Notes under the pieces: model-generated
Seen by the model: the letters and a program-made list of their open reading frames with translations, nothing else
What the model was told of the DNA's origin: nothing
Database searches by the model: none
Part shown: in pieces, positions 20,563 to 57,465 of the stretch
Layout: each line of letters starts with the position of its first letter
Numbering within the stretch: position 1 is the first letter of the stretch
Program-made: the position numbers and the translations under genes
Source: Lineus longissimus
Lineage: Eukaryota; Nemertea; Pilidiophora; Heteronemertea; Lineidae
Assembly (NCBI RefSeq): GCF_910592395.1
Contig: NC_088320.1
Span: 5,208,001 to 5,272,000, forward strand
Direction: 5' to 3'
DNA: 64,000 bases

Positions 20563-23500
20563 TTACCAATCTTGCCCTTCCCCATCCGCTGAGGCATCAT
20601 CATACAAGTCACGATAAAGATGAGGGTAGTAGGTGTCATCATAGTATTGATCCTCATCGTCTTCCGAGACAGCATGCCCGTGTCCGGACGAATCATCTTC
20701 CGAGGGTCCGTGCCCGGAAAAGTCAGTGTCTTCTCCTGATGTCTCTGGTGGCGGACTTGTCTCCCCGTCGTTTTCGTCTACGTCTACGACCGTTGAAGAA
20801 TGGAACTGTGTAATTTTGTCGAAGAGCACTGTAAGGGTCTCACTGCGCATAGCTGACAGTTCGTCCACGCTTGGGAACTGAAAACAAGCATTATAATCAT
20901 AATTCATCATAATTCTTGATCAGTTTCTTCAAGACAACGATTTCGATACATGAACATGCACTACCCATTCCTCACTGAACATTGACAACAACGCGCGGAA
21001 GATGAAAGTGAATTTGGATTTTGTATGATCGTAATTATATGAGACTAGTTTATCAATAAATGCATGATAAACATTACAAAAATGGTCCCGGCTGGCGCTC
21101 TGGAGGGTGATGACATGACAGAGAGTGCACATCGTCCTTACTCCCATCTTCGGTTTTATTCCCGAAGTTGAATTACAACTATCTCGGGATATATTAGATT
21201 AATCTAATTGACCAAAGCTTAACACGTATTGCTATTACACCTGCAATGTTTGATAATTAAAATCCCTGAGAATAGTAGGATGTAAGAATTCGTTTTGTAA
21301 GTCGGAGGCTGTCAGCAGGACTTCGAAATACGACTTCATTATTTCCGCACGCACAGGCAAAGATCAAGAATTCAAATATGTTTGTACCGATACATTTTCA
21401 TGTTGTTTATCAATGTGAAAACGTTCGTTAGTTTAGTTTTAATCGTAGTTGTCATAAGACGACCATAATTCACTCGTAGTTGAAGTCGAAGCCGTAAGTG
21501 AGGCGCAACCTCCGTATGACATAAATCCGGACCAAGACACTAAACTTCCGAGGTAAAATGATTGTACAGAACGCTAACTTACCGATATGGCATATTTGTT
21601 ATTCCGTCCCTCATAGCACGGGGCCACGAGCTTGATGCCAAATGTCTTGACCTCCAGGACGTCGATTCGCGCCTGTACGTATTCTGTTAAAGTAGGAAAA
21701 TAAGAAGGAATTGTTTTAGATGTTTCTCCGTGTCAACCTTGACGTCATGAGTTGGTCTTTTCACCCTTAAATTGTATGAATATTTTTGTGTCATAAAGGA
21801 AACCATCTCCTTTCTTTTTTTGCAAAGTAAGACATCACACGTTATGTGTAACATAATTTAATACTTACTGTCAGCACCAAGAATAATGGCAAGCACTTGT
21901 TTTCCAAATAGTTGGCAGTTTTCTTCATTCATGTCTAAGTGTCCGTACAGTTTGGCAACATTTGCGAGCACCAGTTGATAATTCTTCTTTGTCCTCTTGA
22001 CCAGGTTCTTGTTGCCTGAAATTCAAGAATAACGTCAAAATTGCCTGACTCAATTTTTGGTCAGGTTGATAGGTAAAAATATTGCTTTACGATATTAATT
22101 TGTAGCTGTTCTTGGCACAAAAAATGAAAAAAATAAAACTGGCAACGGTCTTATGGTGGACGATGCTTTAAAGTGCATGACAATGATTATAAAATAATCA
22201 GAGGTAACATCATGCAGAACATGTCAACTCTGAAGTCCCGGTTTCAAATATTTGTAGGTCACTCTATACCCACGTGATAGAGATAGGTTTACCCCTACTT
22301 TACATTTCAATCGCTCGATATTGCTTATAGAGCCAACAATGTCCCAGTTGATCCTCATCAGCCCAAACTCAATCTTCACTTATTTCACGAATAGTCTATC
22401 AAGAAATCAATGTATGAAATCAATCTGCATATTGTTCTCATTTACATCTCCCAGCTTCTTCTGGGGACGAGAATCTCTTCGCCTTATGAGCTGTGTACCA
22501 AGAGCTATGTTCGAGTATACCGCCACTCAGCTAGGGGTGACGGCTGCGAGGAGGAGGTGCTTCTGGTGCATGTTATCCAAGACAACTTTTTTCTTTGGCG
22601 CCATTTTCGCCCCTGGACTTACCCAGGATGCATTTGTAGCTTTTGTTGATCTGTCCGGTGAGTGGATGAATCCGACATGTTTCTGAGCGTTTATCTGTCG
22701 ACACTCTGTGATGGTAGACGTATTCGCCCTGAAAAAAAGGAAAACTCTGATCGTATGCATATGAATCGTGCAGCGAATGAACTACATGAATCTGATCTGT
22801 TAAGACTAAGAATCTCATAATAATTTGGAGTTTTGCCAAGTCCGTTTACCAATTTTGCTCTTTCTCTTCAATATCAAAGACATACCGGTACCCTGAATGT
22901 AGTGGCCTACCATTAATGTATTGCTTACCTTGTAATGGCCACTTTTTGTCATTCTTCCTATCATTTAAGACCTATTTAGTAACTGGCCTTCGTCATTTTT
23001 GTTGTTCAGCAATGTTTTATCATTCTACCAGGAATATTGCAAAAACATACCTTTGCAAAGTCGAAGAACCAGGTGTTGGATGTTTTCTTCTTGTGATCAG
23101 TGTAGTGAAGACGAAATCGTTCATTTTCGAAATCTGCGCCGAGGCTGAAGAAGAAGATGGCAGTTAGATATCCTGCACTCTTAAAGATGAAGGTTTTTTA
23201 TCTTCTGAAAAGCCTTTTTGGGTTTTTTTTCAACCAACACAAAGATTTTGTATATATGCAGCCACAGAGGTTTTTCAGAGAATTGACAATCCCCTAAATG
23301 TATTTGAGTTCATGAAACATCTTAAAGGGTTTTCTATTTCGATGAAAAACCTCTACGGGGTGAATATTTGCTTAAAAAACCTATAAGGTATTTCAGAAGC
23401 TCAAAAACATTTATATCTAGAAGTCAGTGGTGCAATTAGTCGCAGTGTAGTCTTTTGGCAGGAGCCAAGAAGTAGAGACAAAGTTAATTACATAATGCCA

Positions 23501-24105
23501 CCTATAGGGGTCTCTCCCATTTGGCAGTACATCAACGGTATTCAGACATGCTTTTAGGAAAATATATTTTATTCCTAACCAATCACGATCCTAGTCACCT
23601 GCAGATGACCAATTTGACCCCATGGCTCATGCCTAATACGTTATATAGTCCCCGTTCAAGGCCAAACTTCTTTTTAATTTCTGTTTCTTAGGTGCCCCAT
23701 GGTATTTCAAAGAATGAACATTTTCATGCATCATGCCTTCGTCCTTCTTTTGCTGTACTACTCATGACCGAAACCAGCTTCAATTTCAGAACTGATTTTT
23801 TTAATGTGTGTAGGTCATCTCAGGTCGTCACATTAAAACAGCGAAATACAGCACATACATGTACATGAAATGTTTGACCAAATTGGCGATGCGTAAGTTT
23901 GGCTGTGACGTCACTCAATTACCCATGCTCCTTACCTTCCGGATACATCGTAAACTTCCGTTTCCCGGGCCGTTTTCCCCTCATAGTCTTCTTTGTGGAT
24001 CTCAGCAGAGAAGTCCATGGAGAATTTGTCCGGTAGACAACAGGCTTTAATTCCGCTGGCCATGACCGCGAGACAGGTCATCAGGATCAGGGAATTCATC
24101 CTCAT
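20563..24105 (-). CDS. Secreted ependymin-like protein, short acidic tail (paralog C)
   Basis: Six exons on the minus strand: 24105-23936, 23144-23051, 22728-22623, 22015-21869, 21683-21583 and 20877-20563, stop included; about 310 residues. It starts with a signal peptide (MRMNSLILMTCLAVMASG) followed by CCLPDKF. Later landmarks shared with the two paralogs are LGADF, FDFAK, C-x-x-HPL-x-GQ and Y-x-C-x-LGNK. The CCLP...F start, the Y-rich strands with C-x-x-x-PL, and a late cysteine recall ependymin-related proteins, but the match is weak. The last exon has an amphipathic stretch, then an acidic tail with TSGEDTDFSGHG and DSSGHG, ending in Tyr/Asp-rich sequence and QDW. Intron phases are 2, 0, 1, 1, 0, identical to the genes at 27344 and 32370. 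It lies divergently from the 27344 gene. Function unknown; probably extracellular. Confidence 0.85.
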
Positions 24106-27100
24106 ATCTGAAGAAAAACACAGAAAATTGGTTCTCTGCCATTGGCCTATTATGGCTAATTGTTTGGTTCAGATACTCAGTTTTGTTTTATGTAGTCTTG
24201 TGGGTTTGTGCATTATACATTACATTACAGTCTTTTTGAATCTCACATTGTGGAAAGAGTAGGCAAAATCGGATAAAGAGTGGGCAAAATCGTGTAAAGA
24301 GTGTGCGATGTACACGAAATTGAAAACGATCTTTAAAATGAAGTCTTATAAGAATCTTATCTGAAGTTTCTACCTGGGCTTGGCAAATACCTGGACGGAC
24401 TCCAACCAACATTGCATTCATAAACGTGCAGTCAGCATTACAAACTTACAGACACTTTTTTCTGCGCCAAACGTTTTCGTTATTCCTACTACTACTACTG
24501 CGACACAGCAAACCATGCATTGGTTGCAACCGTGTATACGTTTAAGTCAACGATGAAATGTTGAACAGGTAAAACAAAATGCGAAGAAAATTCGTTTCAA
24601 GTTTACCTTCTCCAAACAATTAGAATGGTGATAATAAACTCCTTTAGATACGATATGGTCACGAATACAACTCAACAGAATCCTTTATGAAAATCGGAGA
24701 GGATGATCAGAAAGAACTTCCCACTACCAAGATACTAGTATATTATTATAATAGGTGATGCACATTACAACTTTGTCCCCAGGAGCATTGTTCTGCATCC
24801 TACAATAACATTATTAGGCAGGCACTTTTTTACCAAGATGACCCAATTCTTCGCCTCAACTTCCAGTAACAATGCCTCCTTCTGTCTAATTATTGATAAT
24901 TGCAGAGGAAGTACAATCCATATTCAACAATTAAACAAGTGGAGCAGTTGATCGAAGTTCCAAGTCTCAGGAAATAATCGGCAGGAGGCCTATATGGTCA
25001 GGCTGCTTCCTTTCTTCGAAATTTGCGAGAGCAGTTGACGTATGTAATCGACTCATGTCAATGTACTTTTAAGGAAAGCACAAATACTTGCGTTTGTACC
25101 AATATTTAAGGGAAAAAATCCAAGGAGAACTAACGCATAATCTTATTCCTCTTTATAAATGTAAGCCAAATTTCTTTTTCTCCATCAGAAATGTGAGTTT
25201 TGGCCCATAGCTACAAAATTTTAGACGGGAGATTCTGTCATTAAGTGTTTTTTGCGGTATTCGGCACTAACCCCTCATGAAAAATAACGAGAACCTGCTT
25301 CAATATGTTTAAATGAAACTTTCTATTCTATCATAACTTTGATGACAACAACCGCAAAGTAGGCTACTATTCGCCAATTATGTTTGGAAAAATTGCGACA
25401 TTCATAAATAACAGTTAGTCTATCGTACCCAATAATGTTATCAGTTAAACGGTTGAATCCTATCCCAATTACGAACACTCATTAAATCAGAATAAAATGA
25501 AGAGATGTTTTGACCCCGATGTAAGTGGTCATTGTTGCAAAATGTCACCACAAGTGTGTTAGCTATTAACTCTGGGCCGTCTCAAAGGTTGGCTCAAGCT
25601 AACATACATATACGTAGCTGAATCGACAAATGATGTACAGTCACACCGGCAGATTGATTGACAAAGGCGTGCGGGTATCTCTCAATGGCGCAATTATCAC
25701 TACAGTCATGGTCATCCAACATTCTAATTTGCCCACATCCGGGCTTTTCTCACACAGAGCCTCTTCAAATGTTTTCCGCAGGCCGTTTTTCAACTGAAGC
25801 TCCCCTAAAATAATAGAATGGTGCGAGTGTGTGGTGACACCCACATTCAGTAGTGAAATAGCGTCCCAAAGTACATTCGAAGCCAAGTTTCCCTACTCAA
25901 TGTACATCGCGGTAAAAGTTAAATGTCATCAGGTACACAGGGAAATGTTTTGTGATAGTTTGTCCGTGTACCTGCTGGGGTCCTCTCGCAGTGCGTTCCA
26001 TGGGCGATTCATTAGTGTCTAACCAGCCATGTATGTACATTGCACCTTACAGTGACGACATTCGGTATGTTGCCCGGCGAGTTGGGGTATATTGCTTATC
26101 TCGCAACAAAAATCATCTTGATAATAACTGTAGGCCTACCGTTCTCTGGTCGGCAGCGATCAATTGTCGGACACAAAACTTGCTGTCGATGTCATAAAAA
26201 TTCATTTGAGATGTTCTAACGGTTGCTTATCATCAAAAAATACATTCACATGCAGTACATTTTCACCGAAACAACTTTCGTCAACTATATGGGCGTCGCC
26301 CGACAACTGTGAACCGATCGAGCGATATGGCGAAAAGTCGACGGGCGGGAGTCGGCATCATTGCTAACACAACACAGCGTCCCAGCCAATCATAATCAAG
26401 ATATTCAGAATGTCTATGTGTAGGTGATATCAATTGGATTATCCTTGGTGATATTCAGACAACCCATTAAGGGTAAACAGACAGAATCTGTGTCCATCGG
26501 AAACAGCGGATAATTTTATAAATATATAATATTTTTCCGTTACTGTTAATAGAAATAGGCAATTATAAGTAGGTTGCAATAATGACGATTGTTGTGTAAT
26601 TACACAGATTTGACGGAGCATGTATATGTAGAATATTGAAATGTCAAGTTATTTGGATCAACTGCCACGGAGAGCTTGGAAGTGGCCAGGATAAGCGTCG
26701 AGAACGGCAAGTCAACATTTCCAAATTCTGTTAAATTTTGTCGTTCCTTCTTTTCTTACGCTCGTTCCATCTCCCGGTAAAGTGGAGTTCTAACAGCGCC
26801 TTATGGTGATTTAGGGTTGGTTTACACGTTGGATTTTTGTAGGAGTCTCCAGCTTTATTGAAGGACCAGACTGAGTGCACATGGTGGAGTGGTTATAGGT
26901 GCATAATTTCCACACTGTCGACTGCCCAGTCGCCTACCACAGTACAGTTATAGTAGCTTGTCTATCATCAAAATACACGGTAAAATTTAAACACCGAGAA
27001 CTGCTGGGTTTCTCCGATTTTGATTTCGAGTCTCTAACCTGATCGTGAGTTTGTGTGCCGATCGGTGCATAAGCAATGTGTAGCGTGGAGCTTTGGAGAT

Positions 27101-27343
27101 GACAGTGTGACGTTCACCCTTAACCCCGATAACACCACTCATACTGGCCATCATCGGGGTGACATAAAATGAGACACTCAGGCACGAGAACCTTCCATGT
27201 TTTGACTATTCGCTTAATTTTTTGGACATTCAATATATTTGTTCGGCGTTTGGCAAAATATTTATTATCAGGAGTCTGTTCAGAAATAAACCTTTCTTTA
27301 TCATCCCTGAACCTTTCTTTATCATCCCTTTGCAGATAAGGTA
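24106..27343. other. Spacer between divergent paralogs
   Basis: About 3.2 kb separate the start codons of the minus gene ending at 24105 and the plus gene at 27344, so promoters of both should lie here. A dispersed AAGAATCTTA-type repeat lies at 24316-24400. At 27288-27333 a 21-bp unit like aacctttctttatcatccc is duplicated. The bases tttgcag just before the 27344 start codon suggest a non-coding 5' exon upstream. No other exon was recognised. Confidence 0.5.
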
Positions 27344-30300
27344 ATGTCGCACTCTCGGGCTCTCGTGTCTGCTGTCTGCACAGCGCTTGCGCTGCTGGCC
27401 ATGGCCAATGCCTGCTGCCTGCCGCATAAGTTTGTTATGAATTTCATTGGAGAGGTTGACGAGGAATATTATGGTGCCAAGAAAATCTACAACATCACTG
27501 GAAGGTAGGATTTTTCAAAACATTTCCTGGAGCATTTGATCGTCACAACGTCAAAACTGTACTTGGTTGGTCAATATTACTCACTAGCGCGGTTAGCGTA
27601 AGTATTAAAATGAAGAAGCCTGTATGGTAACAATAGCGGTGATGATGACGATGATGTCGACGACGACGGCAGCTGGCGCCGATGAGTGCCAGTTGGTGTT
27701 ACAAAGTATTGAAATGTGTGACCTAAAAACTAACTGGAGCTCAGTGCGTACACCAACGTATGCATGTACAGTACAGTACAGTACATGAATGCACTATGAT
27801 GGCAATCTGTGTAAATTGTGCTGTACTCATTATCGTTAAGTAAATTAACCTTACAATTACATATACATTGTATTAGCAAATCAGGTACTAATAATAAATT
27901 CATCCTAACTTGCGAATTCTATTATATGTGTTTTGTGATGCTAACATTTGTTTAACTTTTAGCATTGGTGCCAACTTCTACACCCAGAAATTCAGCCTTC
28001 AATACAGTTTCGACTCGCGTGTCAAAGAGATATTGATCTTAGAACCTTTACAGGCAAGTCACGGAAGATTTCCAAGAGATATCCATTGCTTTTAACCGAT
28101 ATACTGTGAACCAGCATGACACCGAACTTGATGGTGATGATGATAAAAACCCTTGAGGTCTTGAAAAGCTTTAAATGTTTTCAATTATAACTAAAGGAAA
28201 ATGATACATTTTTTTCGCATATTTGTGCCTGATCAAACAAAACTCAGCAGTCTAGACTCTCTGTGATGACAGAAAAGCGGGGAATCGAAAAAAGCAGCGA
28301 TAAAGCAGGGAAAGGGTTGCGTTTTGGTTCCGTTTCTCGGTATCTAGCAGTCAACTTTGTATGTGCATCATTATGTACAAGTTTGCTAGTAAAGATGTAC
28401 ACCCAAATCGACATCCGTTACTTGATATAATAAGGAAAAACATTTTTTTCCAGGATAAATTCCTCCACACGCGCCAAGTCAATCACGAGCCAGCTGTCTG
28501 CCACGTGGCTCAGGGTGTTGATGGCTATTTGAACATGGACTACCGGTGTTTCCTAGGTAAGTATTCACTACTTTCCTTTTCATTATTTACCGTATACTGC
28601 TTTGGTCGAGATAACTTGAGAGCCCATTATATCAGTTGAAATCACAGCATGATTAAAAAATTGTATGCAATGATAGCATGCCCTCCGAAACGATTATATC
28701 AAGTTATGAATTTGCCAAGAGTATAAAGCACAAGAGAATTTTGATCAAAAGGGACTAAAGCGTAAAAATGATACTTTCAATTTCAGGAAACAAGAAACTC
28801 GTTAAGACTATTGGTAAAACATACAAACTTAAACTTGGAAAATCTATGAAGATGACGGGATTTCTCCAGAGATCGAGTGAATATGTGGATATTTGTGAGC
28901 TCCAGGGACTACAAACATTCTCACTAGTGACTGGGTCGGGCAGTAAGTACAGGCTACACTGATACACTGATACACTGATACACTGATACACTGATACACC
29001 GGCGCAGTGATAGTTGTGAAATTATCATGAGGTGGCCAACTCTCACTGCTTGACTTGGGTGCATATATTTGTGTTTGCTGAAAAACTCTAAAAAAGCTCA
29101 ATAGCCTTTATTTTCAAGAGTACAGAGACCTCCTCCAGAAAATCTCATTTACAATTTAACCGTTAGGACTGATCACCAACGTTAGTGCCTTTGCCGATTC
29201 TCTAAATACCAATGCAACGATGAAAAATTTATCATGAAGCCTAAAATGATAATTATATGATTTGTTATATATAAATTACATGATTAAGATGATTGTTACA
29301 CAAAAATTACCATTTTATTCTTGCAGAAGCACTGCGAGTGGGGCTCTTGGTGACAAGTTTCATGACAGGGCCTTTGATCGACGTCACTCCAACTTGTACC
29401 GAACAGCGGCCACTCAGCCAGAATGTCATTACGGTGAGTGGATGGGCAGATGAACACACATACGAGTATTGTTTTACGGATCTGAGGCCGGTTCTAAAAT
29501 TGGAAGCCTAGCACCGCACAAGGTGGATCGTCTCGCAGTCGGGAAAAAGAAAATGCCTTAGGTTTTTTTTTAGATTGTAAAGCCGCGTGTAATATGCCGT
29601 TTGTCAACACGTGCGGTGAAATATTATTTCTATACAGTTCGATGTAAAATACATGGCTGTTACGCGTGCGTGGACAGAACGGGTAGGGAATATTGGCATC
29701 AGTACCTAACTCATCCATCAAGTAATTCACTGGTAATGGTTTCTTTCCCTAGATTTATTGACGGAAAACTATCAAAATCGGTGACTTGACAATTGTTATC
29801 AACGACGACTAGAATTTCCCTCAAATTCTAATTTTCTGCTCGTAGATTACCCTAAATACATTAAAAAGCTACTCCGCCGAAAAATAAAGCCCTCTCTATA
29901 TAACGGTATAATTTTTATCATTTCCAGATTCCCCTTATGGCCACATTTTCGAAAATGAGTGGAAAGGGTATCGCCTCAATGTTCAGTAAGCTCTGGTCAA
30001 CTGATGTGCCCGCCGTGCCAACCACTGCGAGGCCAACCACTACCACATCAACCACTGCCGAACCAACCACTTCCGAACCAGCCACTGCCGAACCAACCAT
30101 TGCCAGGCCATGGGTGGGGGTGACTGATGGTGATGTAGTTCAGGGAGGCAGTGGAAGTGGTAATGGTGGCGACGACGACGATGATGACAATACCGATGGC
30201 ACTATTGTCGATGAAAGTAGTAGTGGTAGTGGCAATGGAGATACAGACGACGAAGATGGAAGTAGTAGTGTTGGTGTCGAACCACCCTTTGCCGTACCAA

Positions 30301-30722
30301 CCACTGCCGAACCAACCACTGCCCGGCCAACTACTATCGAACCAACCACCGAAAAACCAATCACTCCGACGCCCGGTGGTAGATATGTTTGGCAAGGTAA
30401 TAGCTGGGCTTGGGTGATTGATGAAGTTGTAGTTCAGGGAGGCAGTGGAAGTAGTGATGGTGGCGACGACGACGATGATGACAATACCGATGGCACTATT
30501 GTCGATGAAAGTAGTAGTGGTAGTGGCAATGGAGATACAGACGACGAAGATGATGATGGTGATAAAAGCGAAAGTAAGGAAGAATTTGTAAACGACTCAG
30601 GCCACGGTGATGTCGATGGTGATGGGGACTATGATGACTATGACAGAGAGTACTGGTCGTACTATTGGAAGGACGAAGACCAGGCTATAGAAGATTGGGA
30701 AGCGCAGTATGATGGTCGTTAG
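27344..30722 (+). CDS. Secreted ependymin-like protein, PTT and Asp/Ser-Gly tail (paralog A)
   Basis: Six exons: 27344-27504, 27963-28053 (GC donor), 28454-28556, 28787-28942, 29327-29433 and 29928-30722; about 470 residues. The signal peptide MSHSRALVSAVCTALALLAM is followed by ANACCLPHKF. The head keeps the shared landmarks IGANF, VCHVAQG, YRCFLGNKKL, ICELQGLQT and GLLVTSF...TPTC. The last exon opens with IPLMATFSKMSGKGIASMF, aligned with FPTLAALSKMSERGMAAMF in the 32370 gene. A mucin-like stretch of T-T-A-x-P-T units follows, then two near-identical copies of about 45 residues with VVQGGSGS, DDDDDDNTDGTIVDE and SSSGSGNGDTDDED. The end is acidic and aromatic (EYWSYYWKDEDQ). The acidic Ser-Gly context fits glycosaminoglycan attachment (inference). 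An AATAAA lies at 31409-31414. Function unknown. Confidence 0.87.
28957..28999 (+). repeat. 8-bp tandem repeat (ACTGATAC)n
   Basis: About five perfect copies of ACTGATAC stand just after the donor of exon 28787-28942 of the paralog A gene. It is a simple intronic microsatellite. Confidence 0.9.
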
Positions 30723-32369
30723 TCACCAAAAGGTTGCCACAATTCTGCATGAATTTGTTAATTGAACGCAAAGAAGTTTCACATACTATATATAGCGTAT
30801 TTAAATAGGGTTCACGTTGTCACTTTATAACGTTTCACTTTAAGACGAACTAGTCGTTTCCAAAGAGCGGGCTACATATGATTCACGTTTCACCTTCATA
30901 TCGTTACATGTCATGGTATTACGCCTGAGTCAATTGACGAACGTTAGTGATGGCCTTATTCTGTTTAAAGGCCATATATCAAGGTTTGAAAAACACTGAA
31001 ATATTGAGAACACTGGGATATATATGTTACGCCGGCATTCTGGTTGTCACTCGACTTTGTCCTCAAAAGACTCATTTGGGATGGAGTACCATACACGGCA
31101 GACCCACATTCTGTGCAGCAAAAACTGTATTAGGATGCCTGATGCGAGTTTCGTCAGAGAACTCACATGGATAGGTTTAGAAGGAACACGTCAGGATTGA
31201 AAAAGGAGGTACAATTTCACAGCCCACAAAAATGAATTTGTTAGTTTGTATGTGAAATATTTGCATGGTGGGAGTTTGAATCTTAAATGCAAATGAGCAA
31301 ATATTTTGTTACTGTCAATTTATTTTGTCATTGTCCTAATTAACCGCGGAAAAACTTAATAATTTATTCGGAAACTGACTGCATAAGTGTATCCGTTGCA
31401 GTTTACACAATAAAAAAGACGCAATGTTAGTAGGCCGTCGATAATTGCGGTTGTTCTTTTATCTTATTATATCATACTAGTTATGAATTAAAATTACACG
31501 CATGTACGTTCTGTTGGATGGCATATCAAGGGATGTGAATCAACAGTCTTGGAGGGGTCAAAAGACGACAACAGGAACTGAATAAACGGTAAGGCCCTGT
31601 TCTGAACTATTATTTTACCGAATGTTCCGCCTACAAGCAGCAACTTCTTAACATTTGAAATGACCTTATTAAAATGCTTTACTTTAAAATGCTTGCCTGA
31701 CATGTACAGTCGTGTGCATATTAATGTCCACACCTACTTAATACGGTATCGGCATGAGCATGCTGAATGTATCTCTCTCTCTGAAATACATTCACATCCA
31801 ATGAAAACATTTCCAAATATCGTAAAGACTCTATTGGCTGAAACATGACCTATGACGCCATCAAATTAAGCGGATTTTAGATCACTCTGGTAAGCTATTA
31901 CAACCGACCTTAGTGCTTTCTACTCCATTAATCGCGCAAACTTCAACAGATAACCTATCAAATGTACCTTTATTAGATCAAAAATCCAGATACCGTGGCG
32001 TTTCCTGTTAGATTCTTAGTCTAGATGTTATTAAGTTCGTGTACATCATGTACATGACATTCGTTACAAAGTTAGACACCCAGTTAAGGTCTTTCATACA
32101 TACAAAACTTAATAAGATTTTAAGTGAGAATCTTACAAGAATCTTTTATGCTTTCTCGACCTGGGATAACATTTATGCACTACAGGATCTTAATTTCCTA
32201 ACTGAGCTGCAAAAAGTTAAGCAATAGACGACTACAAGACTGGGATAGGACTATGTCGCCAAGACGTTCCTTTAATCAACTCCATAGATATTCAATGCCA
32301 AATAAAGTACGACCCGTTTTTTTCTACCCCTTTTGATATATTTACTGAATCGGCATTCCAGGTTCAGTT
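30723..32369. other. Spacer between tandem paralogs A and B
   Basis: Holds the 3' UTR of the upstream gene (AATAAA at 31409) and presumably the promoter of the gene at 32370. A bit of the dispersed AAGAATCTTA family lies at 32095-32170. The bases cattccag just before the 32370 start codon look like a splice acceptor, as in the upstream paralog, so the 5' UTR is probably split. No further exon was seen. Confidence 0.45.
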
Positions 32370-35300
32370 ATGCAGTACTATCGGGCCCTCCTGTCCCTCT
32401 TCTTCGGTGTGCTTGCGCTGCTGACTGCCACCTACGCGTGCTGTCTGCCAAACAGGTTCGTTATGACTTTCCTCGCCGGAATCGATGAGATGAAACAAAA
32501 TGGCGATAGGCGTACGTACAATGTTCTTGGGAGGTAGGTACACTCTTAAAATAATCAGTAAAATGAATATATGTCGTGTAACATCATATACTACGATACA
32601 TGGCAACATGGATGCATAATTTATAACTTGATGTTTCAATTTTAGATTCGGTGCTGATTTCGGCCAGCAGAAATTCGGTATTTTCACCAGGGAACCAGGG
32701 GATACAGCTGTCGAAAACCGATGGACTTTTGACTTCGTTAAGGTAACTGACCAAATCTCTTTGAGAAACAGCACCGTGCTATTTCATTCAAGGGAAATTA
32801 TATATGGTTTCTCATATTCTTAGGATTAATCGGGGAAGTTTTTAAAAGAAATCGTCTACGAAGGCTTGCAAACCTGCCGAGTGTTCAATTTCCCCCAATC
32901 AATGAGGTTGCCAGGTATGTAACACGTGCAATGGCACAACTTTGGAATATATCCATATACTTTATGTTGGAAATACTGGTGAAGATCCATGGGAAAGAGA
33001 CGAAAGCATATATTGCTTAACCTAAGATACCAACTAATTTTGGCAGACGTTCATAAAAATAAGATGAATTTATTTTTCAGCGTGAATTATTGTATACTCG
33101 CCGGACCAACAACGAGCCAACCGTGTGTGATGTTCATCCTCTCCACGGCCAGTTGGGCAAGGATTATAGATGCTTCCTCGGTAAGTCTTCAAATCGGTTC
33201 CGCCAAAAAACAACATCGTTTAATATTTATCGCTGGTCGAAAATCCTGATATGATTGTTATAAGAATCTTAACTTAAATATTTAGTTTGTACACATGTGC
33301 ATGTACATTGTCCACGATATCCTTGTAATATTCTTTGTCAAGATCTTAACTTAGTAACTTTATACACGCATCTTGTAACGAATGCATATGTTCATGGACA
33401 CAAAAACTGAATACGATCTTAAGAATCTGATACGAATCTTATCGGAATTTTCGACTTTTAATGGCTTTACAAATTTTTCTGTAGTGCTAAAAGCAGAAGG
33501 TTGACGAGGAAAGATTGCTTCATATGTTTCCTTTGCAGATTTATTGATATCAGTTGGGTTAAAAACGTGAACGCTTTACAGGCTTTTCTGTTGTGCGAAA
33601 AACTAAAGGTGGTGTCGAAAATAAGATACATGAAGGATGCATTTCACCAAGTCTGTCCCGTATCTCGGCGTCGATGCTTACCCCTTTTTTGATCCGAAAT
33701 GGTCGTAAATTATAAGGAATGAAACGTGTCTATTTCATATTCAGAGAACAAGAAGTTTGTAAGGATAACTCGACAATCCTACATGTACAAGGTTCATCTG
33801 GGAAAGTTTGCGAAGATGTTCGGTACCTTCAGACGGACAGATGACGACTATCATATTTGCGAACCTCGAGGACTACAAACAATCGCCATATTGACGGGCT
33901 TAGGCAGTAAGTATACGCCGTGTCTCAAAAAAGTGGTCTGTAAAAGACTTGCTAGATGTAAAACATGACCTTTTGCAGTTTTTCTTTACTTTTCGCTGTA
34001 AAGATGGGACGAAAAACATAGGATTTGTACATATTGTATGATTTTTATGCGGCCTTGCGCTCATTGAGCAACCTGATCTGAAAATCAAATTGCCTCTTTA
34101 CTTTTGTAATTCTACATGTTGTGTACGTCAATTTGCATAGATTTGGTCTTCATTTTCTTCTTTCGTGCTACTTGAATTATAAGAACTCACCCGGGCGTTG
34201 TACTCGGACAATTTTCATTCTTAGATTTTAGCGGGCTCTTATGAATTTAAGCCACGAAGGTGAAGTAGGAGGAGAGTGAGAGAGGGTAGAAGAAAACCGG
34301 ATATACCATCAAGAACATTTTATGAAATCTGAATAAACTATTATCATAAAGAGGGCGGACCCGTTCTCCAACAATACAAATTGCACTGAACTTGTTGTGC
34401 CGAAAATTATGTGGTTACCTTCTTTCAGAGACAGTGCACATACGATTTTTCGTCACCGGTATTGAGACAGGGTCGAGAATTGATATGTCCACTACTTGCT
34501 CAAAGAAGAACAGTGCTAGTAACGGAATGTCGGTGAGTATATTAGCAGTTTTTTTGGGTCAAGGGACAAGAGTTGTGCGACAATAGCCAGATGGAGAACG
34601 ATGCATCAGATCGCCGGTCTGAAGCTTACGTACTTACCTTTACACTACGACACAGTGGGTCAAGCCATCAATTGTGCGAGAGTTCTCTTCTGTGACGTAC
34701 ATATAGCTACGGAATTGGTTATTATGACTAGTAAAACACACTCACACAAAGTAGACGCGACCCAAAGGCTTGCTGAGGGAAGATGAGGTCTATATGGAGG
34801 GATGGTGGTATAGTACGAACCTTATCAGAGTAGGACATTTCCAACCACATGCTCGAAAATGTCAACACCTAACGCCCTCTATGTTACCTTTTTCATTTGC
34901 AATAATGGATTGTACTTGTATCATTATTTCTAGTTTCCAACTTTGGCCGCGTTGTCGAAAATGAGTGAAAGGGGGATGGCAGCAATGTTTCGTCGGTTTG
35001 GAACAAAGCAAGAGGCGAATGTACAAGCTGATGGCAGACCACCACTCATTACTTCCAAGTGGATAGTTGGAAAATGGGTGTGGAACGGCCACAGGTACCA
35101 GTGGTTACCTGATGAAGACCTCGTTACAAAGGGTGGTGAAAATGATGATGATAATCCTGATGGTAGTGTTAATGCTGTTGAAGGAAGTGGAAATGGCAGT
35201 GGCAGTGCCAGTGGTAATAGTGGAGATTATGGTGACGACGATAATCCTGATGGTACTGTTACTTATATAGAAGGTAGTGGAAATGGCAATGGCAGTGGTA

Positions 35301-38113
35301 ATAGTGAAGATTTTGGTGACGATGATAATCCTGATGGTAGTGTTACTGCTCTGGAAGGAAGTGAAAATGGCAATGGTAGCGGTAATAGTGACGATTTTGG
35401 TGACGATGATAACCCTGATGGTAGTGTTACTGCTGCTGGCGGAAGTGGAAGTGGCAATGGCAGGGGTAATAGTGACGATTTTGGTGACGATGATAACCCT
35501 GATGGTAGTGTTACTGCTGCTGGCGGAAGTGGAAGTGGCAATGGCAGGGGTAATAGTGACGATTTTGGTGACGATGATAACCCTGATGGTAGTGTTACTG
35601 CTGCTGGCGGAAGTGGCAATGGCAGCGGTCATAGTGGTGATTATGATGACGATGATAATCCTGATGGCAGTCTTAATGCTATCGACGGAAGTGGAAGTGG
35701 CAATGCCAGTGGCCTTGTTGATAATTATGGTAACGATGATAATCCTGATGGTAGTGTTGCTGTTACTGAGGGAAGCGGAAATCGTAGTGGTGATAATAAA
35801 AACGATGATACTGATGGCACTATGACTGGCTGGGGAAGTGGAAGTGGTCGTGGTAAGGTTGGTGGCAGTGGTAGTGGTGCTAACGAAGATGATGATGGAG
35901 ATGACGACAATACTGATGGCAATACTGATCGCAATATGACTATTTGGGAAAGTGGCAGTGGCAGTGGTAGTGGTAGTGGTAATGGCAGCAGTAGAGGCAG
36001 TGAAGATGATGATGAAGACGACGACGACATAACTGATGGCACTGTTACTTTTCCGAAAATTTGTAGTGGCAGTGGTTGTGGTAGTGACAGCAATAGTGGA
36101 AGTGATGTTGGTGTTGGTGGTGATAGTGGCAATAAAGATGATGGTGGTGATGACCACAATACTTATGGCACTGTTTTTGTTCGGGAAAATGGTAGTGGTA
36201 GTGGCTGTGGTAGCAGTTGTGACAGTGGTAGCGGTGGTGGCAGTGGTATGGGGAGTGGTAGTGGTAATAAAGATGATGATGGTGATGACGACAACACTAA
36301 TGGCACTGTTACTGTTCACGAAAATGGTAGCGAGTGCGGTTCTGGAAGCAGTTGTGACAGTGGCAGCGGTAGTGGCAGTGGTATGGGTAGTGGTAGTGGC
36401 AATAAAGATGATGATGGTGATGACGACAACACTAATCGTACTGTTACTGTTCAGGAAAATGGTAGCGAGTGCGGTTCTGGAAGCAGTTGTGACAGTAGCA
36501 GTGGTGATGGTGGTGGTAGTCGTAGTGGTAGTGGTAATAAAGATGATGATGGTGATGACGATAACACTAATGGCAATGTTACTGTTCAGGAAAATGGTAG
36601 TGAGTGCGGTTCTGGAAGCAGTTGTGACAGCAGCAGTGGTGGTGGTGGTGGTAGTCGTAGTGGTAGTGGTAATAAAGATTATGATGGTGATGACGATAAC
36701 ACTAATGGCACTGTTACTGTTCAGGAAAATGGTAGTGAGTGCGGTTCTGGAAGCAGTTGTGACAGTAGCAGTGGTGGTGGTGGTCGCAATAAAGATTATG
36801 ATGATGACGACAATACAGATAAGACTCCTACATTTGGGGAAAGCGGTACTGGCATAGGTAGTAGCAGTAGCAACGGCAGTGATAGTGCCAGTGACAGTGG
36901 CAGCGACAGTGGCAGTGTAATTGGCAGTGACAACATCAGTGACAGTGGCAGCGACAGTGGCAGTGACAGTGGCAGTGTAATTGGCAGTGACAACATCAGT
37001 GACAGTGGCAGCGACAGTGGCAGTGACAGTGTAGTTGGCAGTGACAACGGCAGTGGCAGTGGCAGTGGCAGTGACAGTGGCAGTGACAGTGGTACTGGCA
37101 TAGGTAGTGGCAGTGGCAGTGGCAATTACAGTGGCAGCAGCAGTGCCAGTGCCAGTGGTAGAGGCGATGGCAGTGACAGTGGTACTGGTAGTGGCAGTGG
37201 CAGTAACAACGGTAGCGACAGCGGTAGTGTTGGTGGCAATGGGAATGACAATGGTAGTGGTGGTGCTAGTGGCAGTACCAACGGTAGTGACATCGGTAGT
37301 GTTGGTGGCAATGGGAATGACAGTGGTACTGGTAGTGGCAGTGGCAGTAACAACGGTAGTGACATCGGTAGTGTTGGTGGCAATGGGAATGACAGTGGTA
37401 CTGGTAGTGGCAGTGGCAGTAACAACGGTAGCGACAGCGGTAGTGTTGGTGGCAATGGGAATGACAGTGGTACTGGTAGTGGCAGTGGCAGTAACAACGG
37501 TACCGACAGCGGTAGTGTTGGTGGCAATGGGAATGACAGTGGTACTGGTAGTGGCAGTGGCAGTAACAACGGTAGTGACAGCGGTAGTGTTGGTGGCAAT
37601 GGGAATGACAGTGGTACTGGTAGTGGCAGTGGCAGTAACAACGGTAGTGACATCGGTAGTGTTGGTGGCAATGGGAATGACAGTGGTACTGGTAGTGGCA
37701 GTGGCAGTAACAACGGTAGTGACAGCGGTAGTGTTGGTGGCAATGGGAATGACAGTGGTAGTGGTGGTGGTAGTGGCAGTAACAACAGTAGTGACATAAG
37801 TAGTGTTGGTGGCAATGGGAATGACAGTGGTACTGGTGGTGGTAGTGGCAAGGGAGAAGATGAAGATGAAGAGGAGGAGGAGGAGGAGGAAAATATTAAT
37901 GGCAGTGTTGCTGAAAAGGGAAAAAGCAACAGTGATGGTGGTGACCATGGTAATAGATATATTGAAAATAAAAGTAACAGTGCCGGCATAAGTCAGGAAA
38001 CTCCGCAGAAATCCTTCAACCGCGGAAGTGAAGATAAAGACAATGACAAAAAAAAGGAAAAATTCGTTTTGTACTATTGGGTCTGGGTAGATCAGTACTG
38101 GGATGATACATAG
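32370..38113 (+). CDS. Giant Ser-Gly/Asp-rich secreted protein (paralog B), proteoglycan-like
   Basis: Six exons: 32370-32533, 32646-32742, 33081-33180, 33745-33906, 34429-34532 and 34934-38113; about 1,268 residues. The signal peptide (ALLSLFFGVLALLTATYA) is followed by CCLPNRF. The head of about 210 residues matches the two neighbours exon by exon with the same phases. The last exon encodes about 1,060 residues. It starts with FPTLAALSKMSERGMAAMF and a Trp-rich WVWNGHRYQW segment. Then come tandem blocks: about 28-residue units (DDDNPDGSVTAAGGSGSGNG) over 35146-35760; 45-residue units with a C-x5-C pair from 36266; Ser-Asp/Ser-Gly runs at 36850-37200; and 24-residue units at 37232-37849. 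A Glu-rich run and an aromatic end (YYWVWVDQYWDDT) close it. Very many Ser-Gly pairs beside acidic runs suggest a glycosaminoglycan-bearing core protein (inference). Serine codons in the arrays are mostly AGT. Confidence 0.85.
35146..35760 (+). repeat. 84-bp coding minisatellite
   Basis: In-frame repeat of about 28 codons (Asp-Asp-Asn-Pro-Asp-Gly-Ser-Val followed by Gly/Ser/Asn-rich and Asp-Asp-Phe-Gly-Asp). Copies near 35400-35590 are almost identical, and the edges are more diverged and of variable length. It encodes the first repeat block of the paralog B tail. Confidence 0.85.
36266..36805 (+). repeat. 135-bp coding tandem repeat with cysteine pairs
   Basis: The motif aataaagat(g/t)atgatggtg begins at 36266, 36401, 36536 and 36671, an exact 135-bp period, with a shortened copy at 36788. 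Each unit encodes NKD(D/Y)DGDDDNTN, a TVTV-x-ENGSECGSGSSC segment and a Gly/Ser run. These units hold most of the cysteines in the tail. Confidence 0.9.
37232..37849 (+). repeat. 72-bp coding minisatellite, eight full copies
   Basis: Units start at 37232, 37304, 37376, 37448, 37520, 37592, 37664 and 37736, with a partial ninth at 37808. Each encodes GGNGNDSGTGSGSGSNNGSD followed by S/I-G-S-V. The central copies differ by only a few bases, which points to recent expansion or conversion. Confidence 0.95.
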
Positions 38114-39638: not shown

Positions 39639-42353
39639 CTCTAACACTGAAGATGAATCCCCAATGCAGCAGGTGCACGAAGACAGTCTACCCAATGGAA
39701 AAATTGAATTGTTTGGACAAGGTGAGAAATTGTTGCGAGTGACTCCTTATTTATGATAACTGGAAGCTCTCTTCGGATGAGATGAATGTGGACGTCATTT
39801 TGGGCTGCTGTGTGAAGGCTACTCGGCTGATTTCGTCACAGTTTAGAATCTTAGCTCTTTTTTGTATCCGTATCCACATTTTCGGTGCTGTATCTTTTTA
39901 TGTGTTAACTTTCAGTACTGGCACAAAGCATGTTTTAACTGCGAAACATGCCACCAGACCCTAGACATGAAGACCTACAAGGGTTTCAATAAGCTGCCGT
40001 ATTGCAATGCGTAAGTTATCATTAATCACATAGATAAATTAGGGTTTTGTTACCAGCAGCCATTTTGGTTCAAATTTTCTGAGGAATATTTCCAATAATA
40101 TTTATCTTGTGCATTGTCTTTGGACGTCAATAAGTGCGTTGAAGAATAGCAAGAAGTGCAAAAACCGTTACAGGAGAAAGAACCCTAAAAAAATCCAAGA
40201 TGACGAAGACTTGTCGATGTATAAGTAGGTCCACAAACCTCCTTCGATAAGCCAGCACTACTTTTCAACCAAGTTGATTGTGATACCACTCGACTATTAT
40301 TTGTGATGATGCTAGTACATGTATTTTGGTTAGATTATAAACCTTGATCGCGGGAGAAAACTTGCATCGGGTCAACGTGTCAATTTGCATGCATAAGGTA
40401 TCCTTCAGTAACGTATGTCAGTGTGATGCACTAATACATTCCTCATACTTTCAGTCACTACCCGACAACGAAGCATACCACTGTGGCAGATACTCCGGAA
40501 AATTTGCGTCTGGCACAGGCCGAAAAGGAACAATCGACTTTGGTAAGCGAGCAATGCAAGATCCTTAATAGAGAGTCGATTGTATTCTCGCATGGGTACC
40601 GGTTATTTGGTAGCGCTCCAAAGTCCAAGTGCATCGTTTCAAAATTACTGTCAGATGGTGCTGAAGGTTCGTGTGATAGATACGTTAAACTACCGATGGC
40701 TGGGTGATTAAGGCGTATGCCTCTTGGAAGGTCGAAGGTTGCCTCTTCCGATGCGGCCGGTTGGTCAGCCGCCGACTGGTTAAAAATATGGTATAAACTA
40801 CCTTCTCGCCAGGCGCTGTTGGAGATACGAGTTTGAAAGTACAGTGTAAATAAAGAGTGTCTCATAGTCTCAAGCTGACTGGCCCTTTTATTAGGGGTGA
40901 CACTTAAATTAACGAACTCTACGACGTATTTCCTTCATATAACATGCAAAGGTGTGCGCTTGTTCATGTAGCTTTTCTACGCCAGTTTATTTTCTAGATG
41001 TCTACAGTGTCGACGCTATTTAGCCAGATTTGGTTGGTCTGTTTCGGAGAGACCTATCACGCGTGAAATAGCCCTTTGTGCAGGCGCTCTTGCACAGTGT
41101 AGACACTATTTAGCCAGCTGATACGCACCTGCACAAAATACCCATATTATGTGTAATAGGCCTATGTGAAGGATGACATAATTGGCTAAATTGGCCACAG
41201 TATATATAACCATGGAGGTATTATTAATAATACCTCCATGATATAACATACATGTTAAAAATGCCTCACATTTTTCATCTCCCCAAGGCTGAATGCACTT
41301 TTAATGGGCCACCCGATACGATGTATTAAATGTCCTGTAAACTGTCTTTGACCAGGTGTACCACAAAGAGTTCGAGGCTGGGAAGGGAAGTTACACAGTC
41401 GTAGCGGATGACCCGGAGTCACTTCGCATAAAGAAAGCACAGGCCCAAGCCAGTGATATTGGATACACCACCAATATATCGGGAAAACCAGCTCCTAGGA
41501 TCAGCACCAAACCACCCAATAGACATAGACTGCCAACTGAAGTCCCCCCACCAACACCGGTAAATCCCGCAAACAGATTTATTACGCTTGTCCTTCTTTA
41601 TGAGAGAGGTACAGATTTTGATCCAAGAACGAGAACGACAGCGAGAAGGAGGTCATTTTTCTCTTGTTGACGTCATCAAGTCAAGTCGATTGTTTTTTTG
41701 TACTAATGTTTCCAGGCATACCAGACATCGAAGACACACTGTTTTAATACATTGTGGCAACATTCGACGCGTGATCCGTCGTCAACCCGTTCTCATTCTC
41801 GTTCTGGGATCTGCTGTACGAGATTTTGCGTTTCAAAGATTTTCGCACCTGAATAAGTAACATAAAGTAAGATCAAGCATATGTTCTCTTTAATAATCTA
41901 TGCTTGGTAATATATAGGTTTGCGAAAAACCTTTTTCAAAACCCCCGACGGAAATAATTTTTTGGGTACATTGCTTACATTTGCGCATTTCAGATCTCAG
42001 TTATTTACCTGGCGACTTAGTGCGACGTGTCCGACTGGCACCACGAGTGCGAACAGCCTACTAAAGTTTTGTTTTACCTTATCTCCAGGTAGCTGGAAAA
42101 ACGTACGTGGCAGTATACGATTACTCGGCAGCTGATGAAGATGAGGTCAGTTTCCAGGAGGGCGACATCATCATTGACGCTACGGTCATAGATGAGGGTT
42201 GGATGCAAGGACGTGTCCAAAGAACCGGGCAATACGGCATGTTACCTACAAACTATGCCGAGGCTCAGTAATGTTGTGGAGATAGAATAGAATCACCCTC
42301 GTCACTTTTCTAATTAATCTAAACTTATCTAAGTATAATAGCATGATAATAAA
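39639..42353 (+). CDS. LASP1: LIM and SH3 protein, LASP/nebulin family
   Basis: Five coding exons: 39653-39721 (exon from acceptor at 39639), 39916-40010, 40455-40542, 41356-41559 and 42089-42271; 212 residues and complete. The LIM domain opens [20 protein letters not shown] and continues [12 protein letters not shown] to YCNAHYP. Two nebulin repeats follow ([11 protein letters not shown] and [11 protein letters not shown] with [15 protein letters not shown]). A Pro-rich linker of about 35 residues is shorter than in vertebrate LASP1. The C-terminal SH3 domain has [21 protein letters not shown] and GMLPTNYAE. The family binds F-actin and works in focal adhesions, muscle and the cell cortex. 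The first exon carries 14 bases of 5' UTR, so an upstream non-coding exon is likely. A poly(A) signal stands 77 bp after the stop. Phases are 0, 2, 0, 0. Confidence 0.97.
40690..40860 (+). repeat. Possible tRNA-derived SINE in LASP intron
   Basis: The start (gatggctgggtgattaaggc) resembles the first part of a Leu/Ser-type tRNA gene, and ggtcgaaggttgcct could be a weakened box B. The sequence runs on for about 100 bp to a gtaaataaagagtg end. It is intronic, and no folded tRNA can be drawn with confidence. Confidence 0.3.
41211..41240. repeat. 30-bp perfect palindrome
   Basis: The half site catggaggtattatt is followed directly by its exact complement. It lies in the LASP intron between 40542 and 41356. 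Just upstream (41006-41120) a motif like cagtgt(c/a)gac(g/a)ctatttagccag occurs twice. It may be the collapsed end of a MITE. Confidence 0.7.
42348..42353 (+). promoter_or_regulatory. Poly(A) signal of LASP
   Basis: AATAAA 77 bp after the TAA stop codon; the nearest such signal downstream of the SH3 exon. Confidence 0.7.
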
Positions 42354-43925: not shown

Positions 43926-44748
43926 TCATCTTTTGTCACCGAAACCTCGCTTATCGCCGAATCCACGCTTATCACCAAAACCACGTTTGTCCCCGAAGCC
44001 TCGCTTATCACCAAATCCGCGCTTATCACCAAAACCACGTTTGTCCCCAAAGCCTCGCTTATCACCAAATCCTCGCTTATCACCGAAACCACGTTTATCA
44101 CCAAAACCACGTTTTTCACCATATCCACGTCTTTCCTCTTCTAACAAATCCCGAGCGGCCATTTCTGCGTATTTAGCGGGCTCACACGGATAACCTAATA
44201 TTTCACAAATATAAGCGTACTCTTCTGCAGGTTGAGAGAATTCAAATATTTCGGCTTCGTTTCTTTTGTCCCCGAAACCTCGTTTGTCGCCGAAGCCACG
44301 TTTGTCAAAAAAGGTGCGCTTGTCACCAAAACCTCTCTTGTCACCGAAGCCGCGTTTATCTCCAAAACCTCTTTTGTCTCCAAAACCACGTTTGTCGCCG
44401 AATCCGCGTTTATCACCAAAACCTCGCTTATCGAAAAAAGTTCTCTTGTCTCCAAAACCTCGCTTGTCTCCAAAACCGCGCTTGTCACCAAAACCTCTTT
44501 TGTCACTAAAGCCTCTCTTTTCACCAAAACCTCTTTTGCCATCCTCTTCTAACAACTTATCGACTATTTCCTCCTCCTCTTTAAGTATACCTTCCTCTTT
44601 TACGGCGCATTTCGTCAAATCTGAGCAATCTTCTGCGATCACCGAATGGCACGTGACGCAGATTAAAAGAAACAAAAGAGCAGCCATCGTCTGTACGGTC
44701 GTCATGGCGACGCTCTTCGAACAGGAACCGGAAGTGGAATAGACCAAA
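43926..44748 (-). CDS. Achatin-like neuropeptide precursor
   Basis: The coding part is 44705-43926 (259 residues), in one exon whose acceptor lies just before 44748. The signal peptide is MTTVQTMAALLFLLICVTCH. A spacer with two cysteines (EDCSDLTKC) and a Glu-rich run follow. Then come 15 tetrapeptides ending in KR, a spacer of about 45 residues with CEILGYPC, and 11 more tetrapeptides to the stop. Counts: GFGD 21, TFFD 2, GFSD, GFGE and GYGE one each, 26 in all. Every unit is 18 bp. G-F-x-D flanked by dibasic sites is the layout of achatin precursors; in Achatina the Phe is converted to the D-form and the peptide is excitatory. No Gly precedes the KR, so no amidation. The start at 44705 is preferred because it opens the signal peptide; the frame is also open up to 44792, but that part is likely intron. 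Confidence 0.9.
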
Positions 44749-45590
44749 CTGAAAAGAGAAAAAGAAAAACCGCTTGAGATAAAATATATCATTTTGACAT
44801 TTCTACTTGGGGGTCCAATCGGTATTATCTGATGATATGACGGTATATGCCCTGTAAAGCTGACAGTCGCTTTGAATGAGTACCGGGTAATGCAGTTAAT
44901 GTATTAAGGGTTTATTGCAAAATGCCTGCGTAATGCATATCCAGCCTATCCTACTGCTCGACATCATATTTCGAACAAAAGTGATCGGCGTTAGGGTCGG
45001 TTTTTCGGGGGCTTTGACAGCGACGGAACGTTAAGGGTTGACCATCGGTAGCACCATTTCGGCGAGAACCTGAGATCCAAAAGCGATGCGAACTCTTTCA
45101 AAACGATGTAAATACCAATTTCAAAGGTGGGAGTCCGTTCTTTGTTTTTCAGAGAACAGTCTTTGACCCTTGAAATTTACATTCACTTCATTTTCAAATT
45201 GAAGGAGTTCTAGTAAGATTTCAAGTTCTAGCCAAAGTGGTGCCTATGGGTAGTCCTTTTACCAACACCAAAGTCTACCCCATTGACATTCAGCGGGTAA
45301 AAACAGGAGGGTTTATATGTTACATTCCACGCCATTCAAACCTTATTAAATATCAAGTTCTATCACGTGAGATATCGGGTCACTCAACATGAAATGTCAT
45401 TAAGTCTAAAAAGAAACGGCTGCCCCGTGCTTAAAAAGAAAACGGATGCTAAACGAGTAGGTCTGTTTATTGTCGTATACATTTTATATCATCGTTGATA
45501 CGAAACACTCAGCCATAGACAATGTAAAGCATGACCCAATTATGACGTGTTCACAGTTGGCCTACTTTCAAATTAAACTATCAAAACAGG
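44749..45590. other. Spacer between achatin and lectin-like genes
   Basis: Should hold the promoters of two divergent genes and a non-coding first exon of the achatin gene. No coding signal or clear promoter element was recognised. Confidence 0.4.
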
Positions 45591-57056: not shown

Positions 57057-57465
57057 CTCACTCACTCACTCACTCACTCACTCACTCACTCACTCACTCA
57101 CACACTCACTCACTCACTCACTCACTCACTCACTCACTCACTCACTCACTCACTCACTCACTCACTCACTCACTCACTCACTCACTCACTCACTCACTCA
57201 CTCACTCACTCACTCACTCACTCACTCACTCACTCACTCACTCACTCACTCACTCACTCACTCACTCACTCACACACTCACTCACACACTCACTCACGCA
57301 CTCACTCACTCACTCACTCACTCACTCACTCACTCACTCACTCACTCACCTCACCTCACCTCACCTTATCTCACCTCACCTCACCTCACTCACTCACCTC
57401 ACTCACTCACCTCACCTCACCTCACCTCACCTCACCCAACCTCACCTCACCTCACCTCACTCACT
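57057..57465 (+). repeat. (ACTC)n microsatellite passing into (CTCAC)n
   Basis: About 290 bp of nearly pure ACTC tetranucleotide repeats, with a few ACAC variants near 57270-57300, change at about 57349 into about 115 bp of CTCAC pentanucleotide repeats. The open frame across it (Thr-His-Ser-Leu repeats) is a by-product of the repeat. Confidence 0.97.

Follow-up and report, generated by a model that had tools for sequence, protein, structure and literature searches.

What does the bootlace worm, Lineus longissimus, produce from three neighboring paralogs that join similar, apparently secreted heads to acidic tails of widely differing length? The first-pass annotation of the window (the whole 64,000-nucleotide stretch analyzed here, C13:5208001-5272000) placed three such paralogs at positions 20563-38113, with six exons and intron phases 2,0,1,1,0 in each, and our gene models bore this out. 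Gene 1 (LOC135498496; 20563-24105, minus strand) is transcribed leftward from exons 24105-23936, 23144-23051, 22728-22623, 22015-21869, 21683-21583, and 20877-20563 and encodes 310 amino acids. Genes 2 and 3 run rightward: gene 2 (LOC135497878; 27344-30722, plus strand) encodes 470 amino acids in exons 27344-27504, 27963-28053, 28454-28556, 28787-28942, 29327-29433, and 29928-30722, and gene 3 (32370-38113, plus strand) encodes 1,268 amino acids in exons 32370-32533, 32646-32742, 33081-33180, 33745-33906, 34429-34532, and 34934-38113. Splice sites were GT-AG throughout, except for a GC donor (GCAAGT) at exon 2 of gene 2. Our models of genes 1 and 2 were identical, over the full length and letter for letter, to the public predictions P0001 and P0002, respectively, and both public entries are named as uncharacterized proteins; the model of gene 3 was supported by alignment of its head with those of genes 1 and 2. 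The long open frame of gene 3 is weak coding evidence, since one reverse-strand frame over the same array runs for 1,010 codons without a stop. We consider exon 6 of gene 3 to be coding because exons 1 to 5 are paralogous to those of the other two genes, the intron phases are equal, and segments of the tail are common to gene 2. The heads are just 29-40% identical in pairwise comparisons, indicating that the duplications were not recent. Beyond genes 1 to 3, a tblastn search of the window with the heads gave one stray 24-codon match (E = 0.65).

Each head comprises approximately 205-210 residues. All three proteins begin with a hydrophobic leader (best 11-mers of 2.4-2.7 on the Kyte-Doolittle scale, a measure of hydropathy alone), in agreement with the earlier description of the head as secreted, and this leader presumably acts as a signal peptide. 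Past the leader, no 19-mer in genes 1 to 3 exceeded 1.4 on this scale, and a transmembrane proteoglycan was rejected due to the absence, by hydropathy, of a second strongly hydrophobic stretch. Of the two sequence motifs previously ascribed to the heads, CCLP..F was found at the start of all three and fits CC-x-P-x-x-F, whereas LGNK was found in genes 1 and 2 (YKCILGNK and YRCFLGNK) and is replaced by LENK in gene 3 (YRCFLENK). Six cysteines are invariant among the heads, at 1, 2, 85, 100, 136, and 174 in gene 1, at 1, 2, 77, 93, 132, and 171 in gene 2, and at 1, 2, 80, 95, 136, and 175 in gene 3.

This arrangement resembles that of the ependymin-related (EPDR) proteins of clade 2, profile 2, whose cysteines are given in PMC6280359 as alignment positions 23, 24, 94, 107, 148, and 186, with 23, 94, and 186 invariant and 24, 107, and 148 specific to the profile. 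Also in common with that group are the leader and a head of about 200 residues, and gene clusters have been reported for EPDRs of other species (PMC6280359). All six cysteines of the profile are present in each of the three heads in the same order and with similar spacing, the deviations summing to 20, 11, and 11 residues for genes 1, 2, and 3, respectively. Random six-cysteine layouts came as close to the profile in 150, 18, and 8 of 400,000 trials for genes 1, 2, and 3 and, when the CC start was given, in 1,054, 108, and 108 of 400,000, counts that assume uniform placement, treat published alignment columns as positions, and come from three heads that are not independent. Two residues past profile cysteine 148, EPDRs have a proline (P150) that is conserved yet not absolute; gene 3 has it (C-E-P), and genes 1 and 2 have leucine (C-Q-L and C-E-L).

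The worm's own EPDR genes provided a further comparison. PF00811 (Ependymin) had 12 exon matches in the Lineus genome, none of them inside the window. Of seven Lineus EPDR loci (L025 to L031), the reading frames of L025 to L028 were compared and the intron places determined by eye. Exon 1 was located for L025 and L027 only, and the two begin with CCAPREW and CCSPRLF, respectively, the same CC-x-P-x-x-[W/F] start as in the heads; a [DN]-x4-[RK] that follows CC-x-P-x-x-[WF] is likewise common to heads and EPDR. An intron just before the exon of the third cysteine is in phase 0 in genes 1 to 3 and in L025 to L028 (four of the seven EPDR loci, by eye), and the other four of the five introns differ in position from those of the Lineus EPDR genes (by eye). 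Because the six-cysteine layout of profile 2, the CC-x-P-x-x-[W/F] start, and one intron of the same place and phase coincide, the heads of genes 1 to 3 are probably divergent EPDR domains. Among the Lineus loci, L029 and L030 on C6 are weak PF00811 matches whose open frames look alike and unlike those of the other Lineus EPDRs, and L026 and L031, on opposite strands of C6 and approximately 3.3 Mb apart, look nearly alike by match scores and in exon 2.

Profile searches did not add a firm match to this evidence. The comparison with PF00811 that the first-pass annotation had recommended gave no match for any of the three heads, and the related PF25544 matched the head of gene 1 alone, with E values of 0.029 and 0.011 (14.8 and 16.2 bits, below the cut-off of 27). 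When the gene 1 head was shuffled, 4 of 6 shuffles matched some unrelated Pfam family, 2 of them with better E values (0.0069 and 0.0076) than the real head; the PF25544 match still counts because the family that it names is the ependymin one already proposed. A consensus of the three heads had no match in Pfam, and the trimmed head of gene 3 gave TDP-43_C at an E of 0.24, a kinship that we rejected as chance. PF25544 matched nothing across the Lineus genome and nothing in the control genomes either, making that search uninformative. Genes 1 and 2 had no match in NCBIfam, nor did the gene 1 head in the PDB sequence search, and a profile of the three heads retrieved six PDB matches, all to the hepatocyte growth factor receptor (E ≥ 0.84), and no EPDR. 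With hhalign, heads and EPDRs aligned at P values of 0.25, 0.078, and 0.049 (probability of about 1% or less), and in the runs at 0.078 and 0.049 the start of the head was aligned to the start of the EPDR, the expected register. The alignment score of the head profile against six EPDRs was above all 300 of 300 column shuffles, and with the cysteine columns fixed, 17 of 300 shuffles equaled it. In pairwise alignments to three vertebrate EPDR1 proteins, shuffles did as well in 156-191 of 400 cases for gene 2, in 35-47 of 400 for gene 1, and in 6-32 of 400 for gene 3.

The absence of a firm profile match and the four introns placed elsewhere would suit a nemertean secreted domain with six cysteines that is distinct from the EPDRs and converged on the same layout. 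This alternative would have to account for the combination of cysteine layout, CC-x-P-x-x-[WF] start, [DN]-x4-[RK], C-x-P in gene 3, and the one common intron, and we consider it quite improbable. Moreover, the sponge EPDR of solved structure 8i34, which was present in the PDB set searched, was missed both by EPDR1 alone and by an EPDR1 profile; because an accepted EPDR is likewise missed, the failure of such searches to place the heads says little about EPDR membership. The ependymin-like character proposed for the heads thus stands as probable on layout, start motif, and one intron, and a firm Pfam, hhalign, or PDB match did not accompany it.

EPDR length is reported to be highly conserved, with a median of 213 amino acids (PMC6280359). 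In contrast, genes 1 to 3 encode 310, 470, and 1,268 amino acids, so that the heads alone fit this length and the tails add 104-1,059 residues. EPDR-cathepsin proteins described in PMC6363788 likewise carry a C-terminal addition after the EPDR domain, but theirs is a cathepsin domain, whereas the addition here is a low-complexity acidic tail. In Lineus L025 to L028, the distance from the last cysteine to the stop codon is 1, 3, 1, and 20 residues, respectively. The gene 3 head gave 10 exon matches in the Lineus genome, all in the cluster, and recovered no more than a single gene 1 exon and three gene 2 exons; diverged members elsewhere could therefore escape this search. Since the gene 3 head matched the cluster alone and L025 to L028 stop near the last cysteine, the worm may have the tailed form at this locus only. 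In the protein database, only the worm's own gene was retrieved by gene 1 (1 of 748 candidates, E ≤ 1), by the three-head profile (1 of 4,003 candidates, E ≤ 10), and by residues 1-232 of gene 2 (1 of 1,812 candidates, E ≤ 10), searches that are weak for establishing absence, since the gene 2 query missed its true paralog gene 1 and proteins of the size of gene 3 lay outside the search range.

The tails are encoded by exon 6 (20563-20877, minus, in gene 1; 29928-30722, plus, in gene 2; 34934-38113, plus, in gene 3) and measure 104, 264, and 1,059 amino acids, matching earlier estimates of approximately 105, 265, and 1,060 residues. They had also been described as acidic with Ser-Gly (SG) pairs, and this was confirmed: acidic residues outnumber basic ones by 29 to 3, 63 to 13, and 191 to 44 in genes 1, 2, and 3, respectively, and SGxG occurs 2, 8, and 59 times against means of 0.1, 0.5, and 13.9 in composition-preserving shuffles. 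SG pairs number 3 (TSGED, DFSGHG, and SSGHG), 9, and 107, against shuffle means of 1.0, 3.6, and 54.1, and these counts were reached by 58, 3, and 0 per 1,000 shuffles. Hence the SG count of gene 1 is by itself unremarkable, and its SGxG count was reached in 1 of 1,000 shuffles. The excess of SG and SGxG in gene 3 is not independent evidence because this tail is built of tandem 84-, 135-, and 72-nt units. The gene 3 tail has 43 N-glycosylation sequons, where shuffles averaged 26.2 and none of 1,000 reached that number. A phosphoprotein reading of the tails was rejected, since genes 2 and 3 had fewer S-x-E, S-x-D, and S-x-x-[DE] sites than shuffles had on average, and gene 1 about as many.

Three features of the tails had gone unmentioned in the first-pass annotation: EF-loop-like repeats, Thr/Pro-rich stretches in gene 2, and a Trp module in genes 2 and 3. 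The gene 2 tail also contains two of the EF-loop-like motifs (DDNTDGTI) and has an aromatic acidic end. A segment at the start of exon 6 and the Trp module are both common to genes 2 and 3 (0 of 500 shuffles each). The start of exon 6 in gene 1 was slightly similar to that of gene 3 (12 of 500 shuffles) and no more similar to that of gene 2 than shuffles were (413 of 500). The C-terminal ends of genes 1 and 2 showed a weaker similarity (8 of 500 shuffles as good), and neither was significantly similar to that of gene 3 (196 of 500 shuffles as good for gene 1 and 147 of 500 for gene 2).

The three genes had been read as secreted proteoglycans, with Ser-Gly pairs beside acidic residues. Taken fully, this would make them serglycin-like proteins with many Ser-Gly sites xylosylated for chondroitin or heparan sulfate, and tail length would set the number of chains. 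Serglycin, too, is acidic, secreted, and rich in repeated Ser-Gly but is not known to have a head of this kind, and the glycosaminoglycan is hypothetical for the present family. The SGxG excess in all three tails favors this reading, as does a xylosyltransferase domain (Xylo_C) encoded in the Lineus genome (two exon matches above the cut-off). In gene 1, all three SG pairs follow [DE]-x, and at least two acidic residues lie within six residues on one side of all 3 SG pairs of gene 1 and of 7 of the 9 pairs of gene 2, levels reached by 26 and 11 per 1,000 shuffles, respectively. The acidic context previously noted thus holds mostly for genes 1 and 2 and not per site in gene 3, where 28 of 107 SG pairs had at least two such neighbors compared to a shuffle mean of 27.4. 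Although 48 SG pairs of gene 3 have an acidic residue no more than 4 residues upstream, above any of 1,000 shuffles (mean, 29.6), this high count arises because SG pairs are twice as many as in shuffles, and the share was 45% (48/107) compared to 55% (29.6/54.1) in shuffles. Furthermore, [DE]-x-SG occurred 4 times against a mean of 9.7 in gene 3 and 0 times against 0.9 in gene 2. Because SG pairs with acidic neighbors form no larger share in gene 3 than in shuffles, approximately 100 glycosaminoglycan sites in this protein are unsupported by acidic context, and the array richest in these pairs lacks a purifying pattern, as described below. We consider a serglycin-like family somewhat unlikely, and glycosaminoglycan on some of the tail SG sites possible.

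The acidic runs of genes 2 and 3 pointed to a different property. These runs lead into the pattern D-x-[DNS]-x-[DNS]-G-x-[ILV], which in this family reads D-D-N-[PT]-[DN]-G-x-[VIL]. The octapeptide D-x-N-x-[DN]-G-x-[VIL] occurs 11 times in the tail of gene 3 and twice in that of gene 2, compared to shuffle means of 0.49 and 0.06, and is absent from the gene 1 tail. Eight of the 11 in gene 3 fit an EF-hand loop at all 12 positions, the twelfth being E or D (shuffle mean, 0.10); this form has no instance in genes 1 and 2 or in the five other frames of gene 3 exon 6. The copies arose by duplication, so the independent events behind them are few. The motif D-x-N-x-[DN]-G-x-[VIL]-x3-[DE] recalls the loops of EF-hand, dockerin, and DxDxDG proteins, likewise in repeats, but no helices are apparent near the Gly/Ser-rich flanks. 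An EF-hand proper was excluded, as the tails contain 0 matches to PROSITE PS00018, from which they differ at the 13th position, and neither gene 2 nor 640 residues of the gene 3 tail matched a Pfam EF-hand. We infer from these motifs that the loops, together with the Asp runs, bind calcium.

The gene 3 tail contains three tandem arrays, all on the plus strand. An 84-nt (28-amino-acid) unit at 35143-35780 combines DDDNPDGSV with an SG-rich linker, a 135-nt (45-amino-acid) unit at 36120-36784 carries cysteines (ECGSGSSC) and DDNTNGTVTVQE, and a 72-nt (24-amino-acid) unit at 37163-37850 is rich in SG and N. In four 135-nt units, the variable columns numbered 7, 5, and 15 by codon position, with 10 extra synonymous versus 13 extra amino-acid states, so that change was mostly at third positions. 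Nine 72-nt units varied at 8, 11, and 10 columns, with no excess at third positions, and had 4 extra synonymous versus 18 extra amino-acid states, close to the 20% synonymous share that random change would give; this array looks unconstrained, varying as neutral repeat DNA would. Fifteen acidic blocks pooled from the tail (7, 6, and 8 variable columns) were without a clear third-position bias. Because third-position change predominates in the 135-nt units and not in the 72-nt units, a thin case can be made for two portions of different age in the tail, the older one containing cysteines and somewhat constrained, the younger one rich in SG and showing no constraint. These data also bear on the possibility that function resides in the head, most of the tail having grown by slippage from a short acidic end and been tolerated for its position outside the fold. 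The tenfold spread of tail length among paralogs, the three arrays themselves, and the patterns in the 72-nt units and acidic blocks are what slippage would leave, but most variation within the 135-nt units is at third positions, and the acidic EF-loop-like motif and Trp module are common to genes 2 and 3. We regard this explanation as unlikely.

Our preferred reading, tentative and somewhat short of an even chance, is of a tandem family in which a secreted, ligand-binding EPDR-type head is joined to a polyanionic tail that binds calcium and offers some sites for glycosaminoglycan. The readings weighed here overlap, and their likelihoods need not be complementary. EPDR1 is described as a clam-shaped dimer whose grooves are hydrophobic (PMC6363788), and a sponge EPDR as binding carotenoids (PMC10470211). 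The head would be an EPDR domain, an 11-stranded beta-clam of the LolA type that is stabilized by disulfides and binds a hydrophobic ligand, and the tail would be flexible and polyanionic, taking up calcium through its Asp runs and EF-loop-like motifs. Packed in secretory granules in its calcium-bound form, the protein could swell upon release into a mucus or matrix gel, in which the head would carry a lipid-like ligand, its pocket placed on the extracellular gel by the polyanion. Some SGxG sites might bear glycosaminoglycan, the best candidates being those in gene 1 and near acidic runs, and the Thr/Pro part of gene 2 might bear mucin-type sugars. A more far-reaching version, which we hold to be rather doubtful, is that the family is a nemertean invention pairing EPDR-type hydrophobic-ligand pockets with calcium-loading, partly glycosaminoglycan-bearing tails of stepped length, yielding a lipid-carrying mucus or granule gel whose swelling would be tuned by tail length.

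Among the settings initially suggested for these proteins, byssus and chaetae are out of place in a nemertean, and the natural candidate is mucus or some other product of glands. A role in a biomineral matrix, raised by papers on mollusc shell matrix that name ependymin-related proteins, was set aside, as Lineus is not known to have a shell or stylets. The first-pass annotation knew of no described family with this combination, and none was met in the literature searched, a search that most subscription journals lie outside. There, ependymin and Nemertea coincided only through Nemertea in a reference title; among the matches listed for ependymin and proteoglycan, none looked related by its title and abstract opening; and the papers that brought together three of C-terminal extension, glycosaminoglycan, Asp-rich, serine-rich, and nemertean did not include ependymin. 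The combination of head and acidic Ser-Gly tail therefore looks new, the EPDR kind itself being already known. EPDRs are widespread and poorly understood, and a branch whose tails are polyanionic and very long would illustrate how the pocket can become part of an extracellular gel. Three side-by-side paralogs with graded tails form a natural series for relating tail length to calcium binding, swelling, and sugar load. Ribbon-worm mucus is toxic and studied mainly for its toxins; its structural proteins deserve equal attention.

Elsewhere in the window, we observed a LIM domain exon at 39850-40014 (plus; E = 9.3e-07), which we take to be LASP/nebulin-like. A frame at 43929-44903 (minus) starts with what resembles a signal peptide and carries some two dozen units of the RGFGDKR type, in the manner of a repeat peptide precursor; its sole Pfam match was a sub-threshold Pericardin repeat, and neither "GFGD" nor "FGDK" occurs at word starts in the main text of a nemertean neuropeptide paper (PMC8557429). 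C-type lectin domains are encoded in two stretches at 45594-46598 (plus; Pfam Lectin_C, E = 4.2e-18), a leucine-rich repeat protein is encoded at 50271-51395 (minus; LRR_8, E = 3.2e-38), and a tetranucleotide CTCA array of approximately 98 copies occupies 57057-57466.
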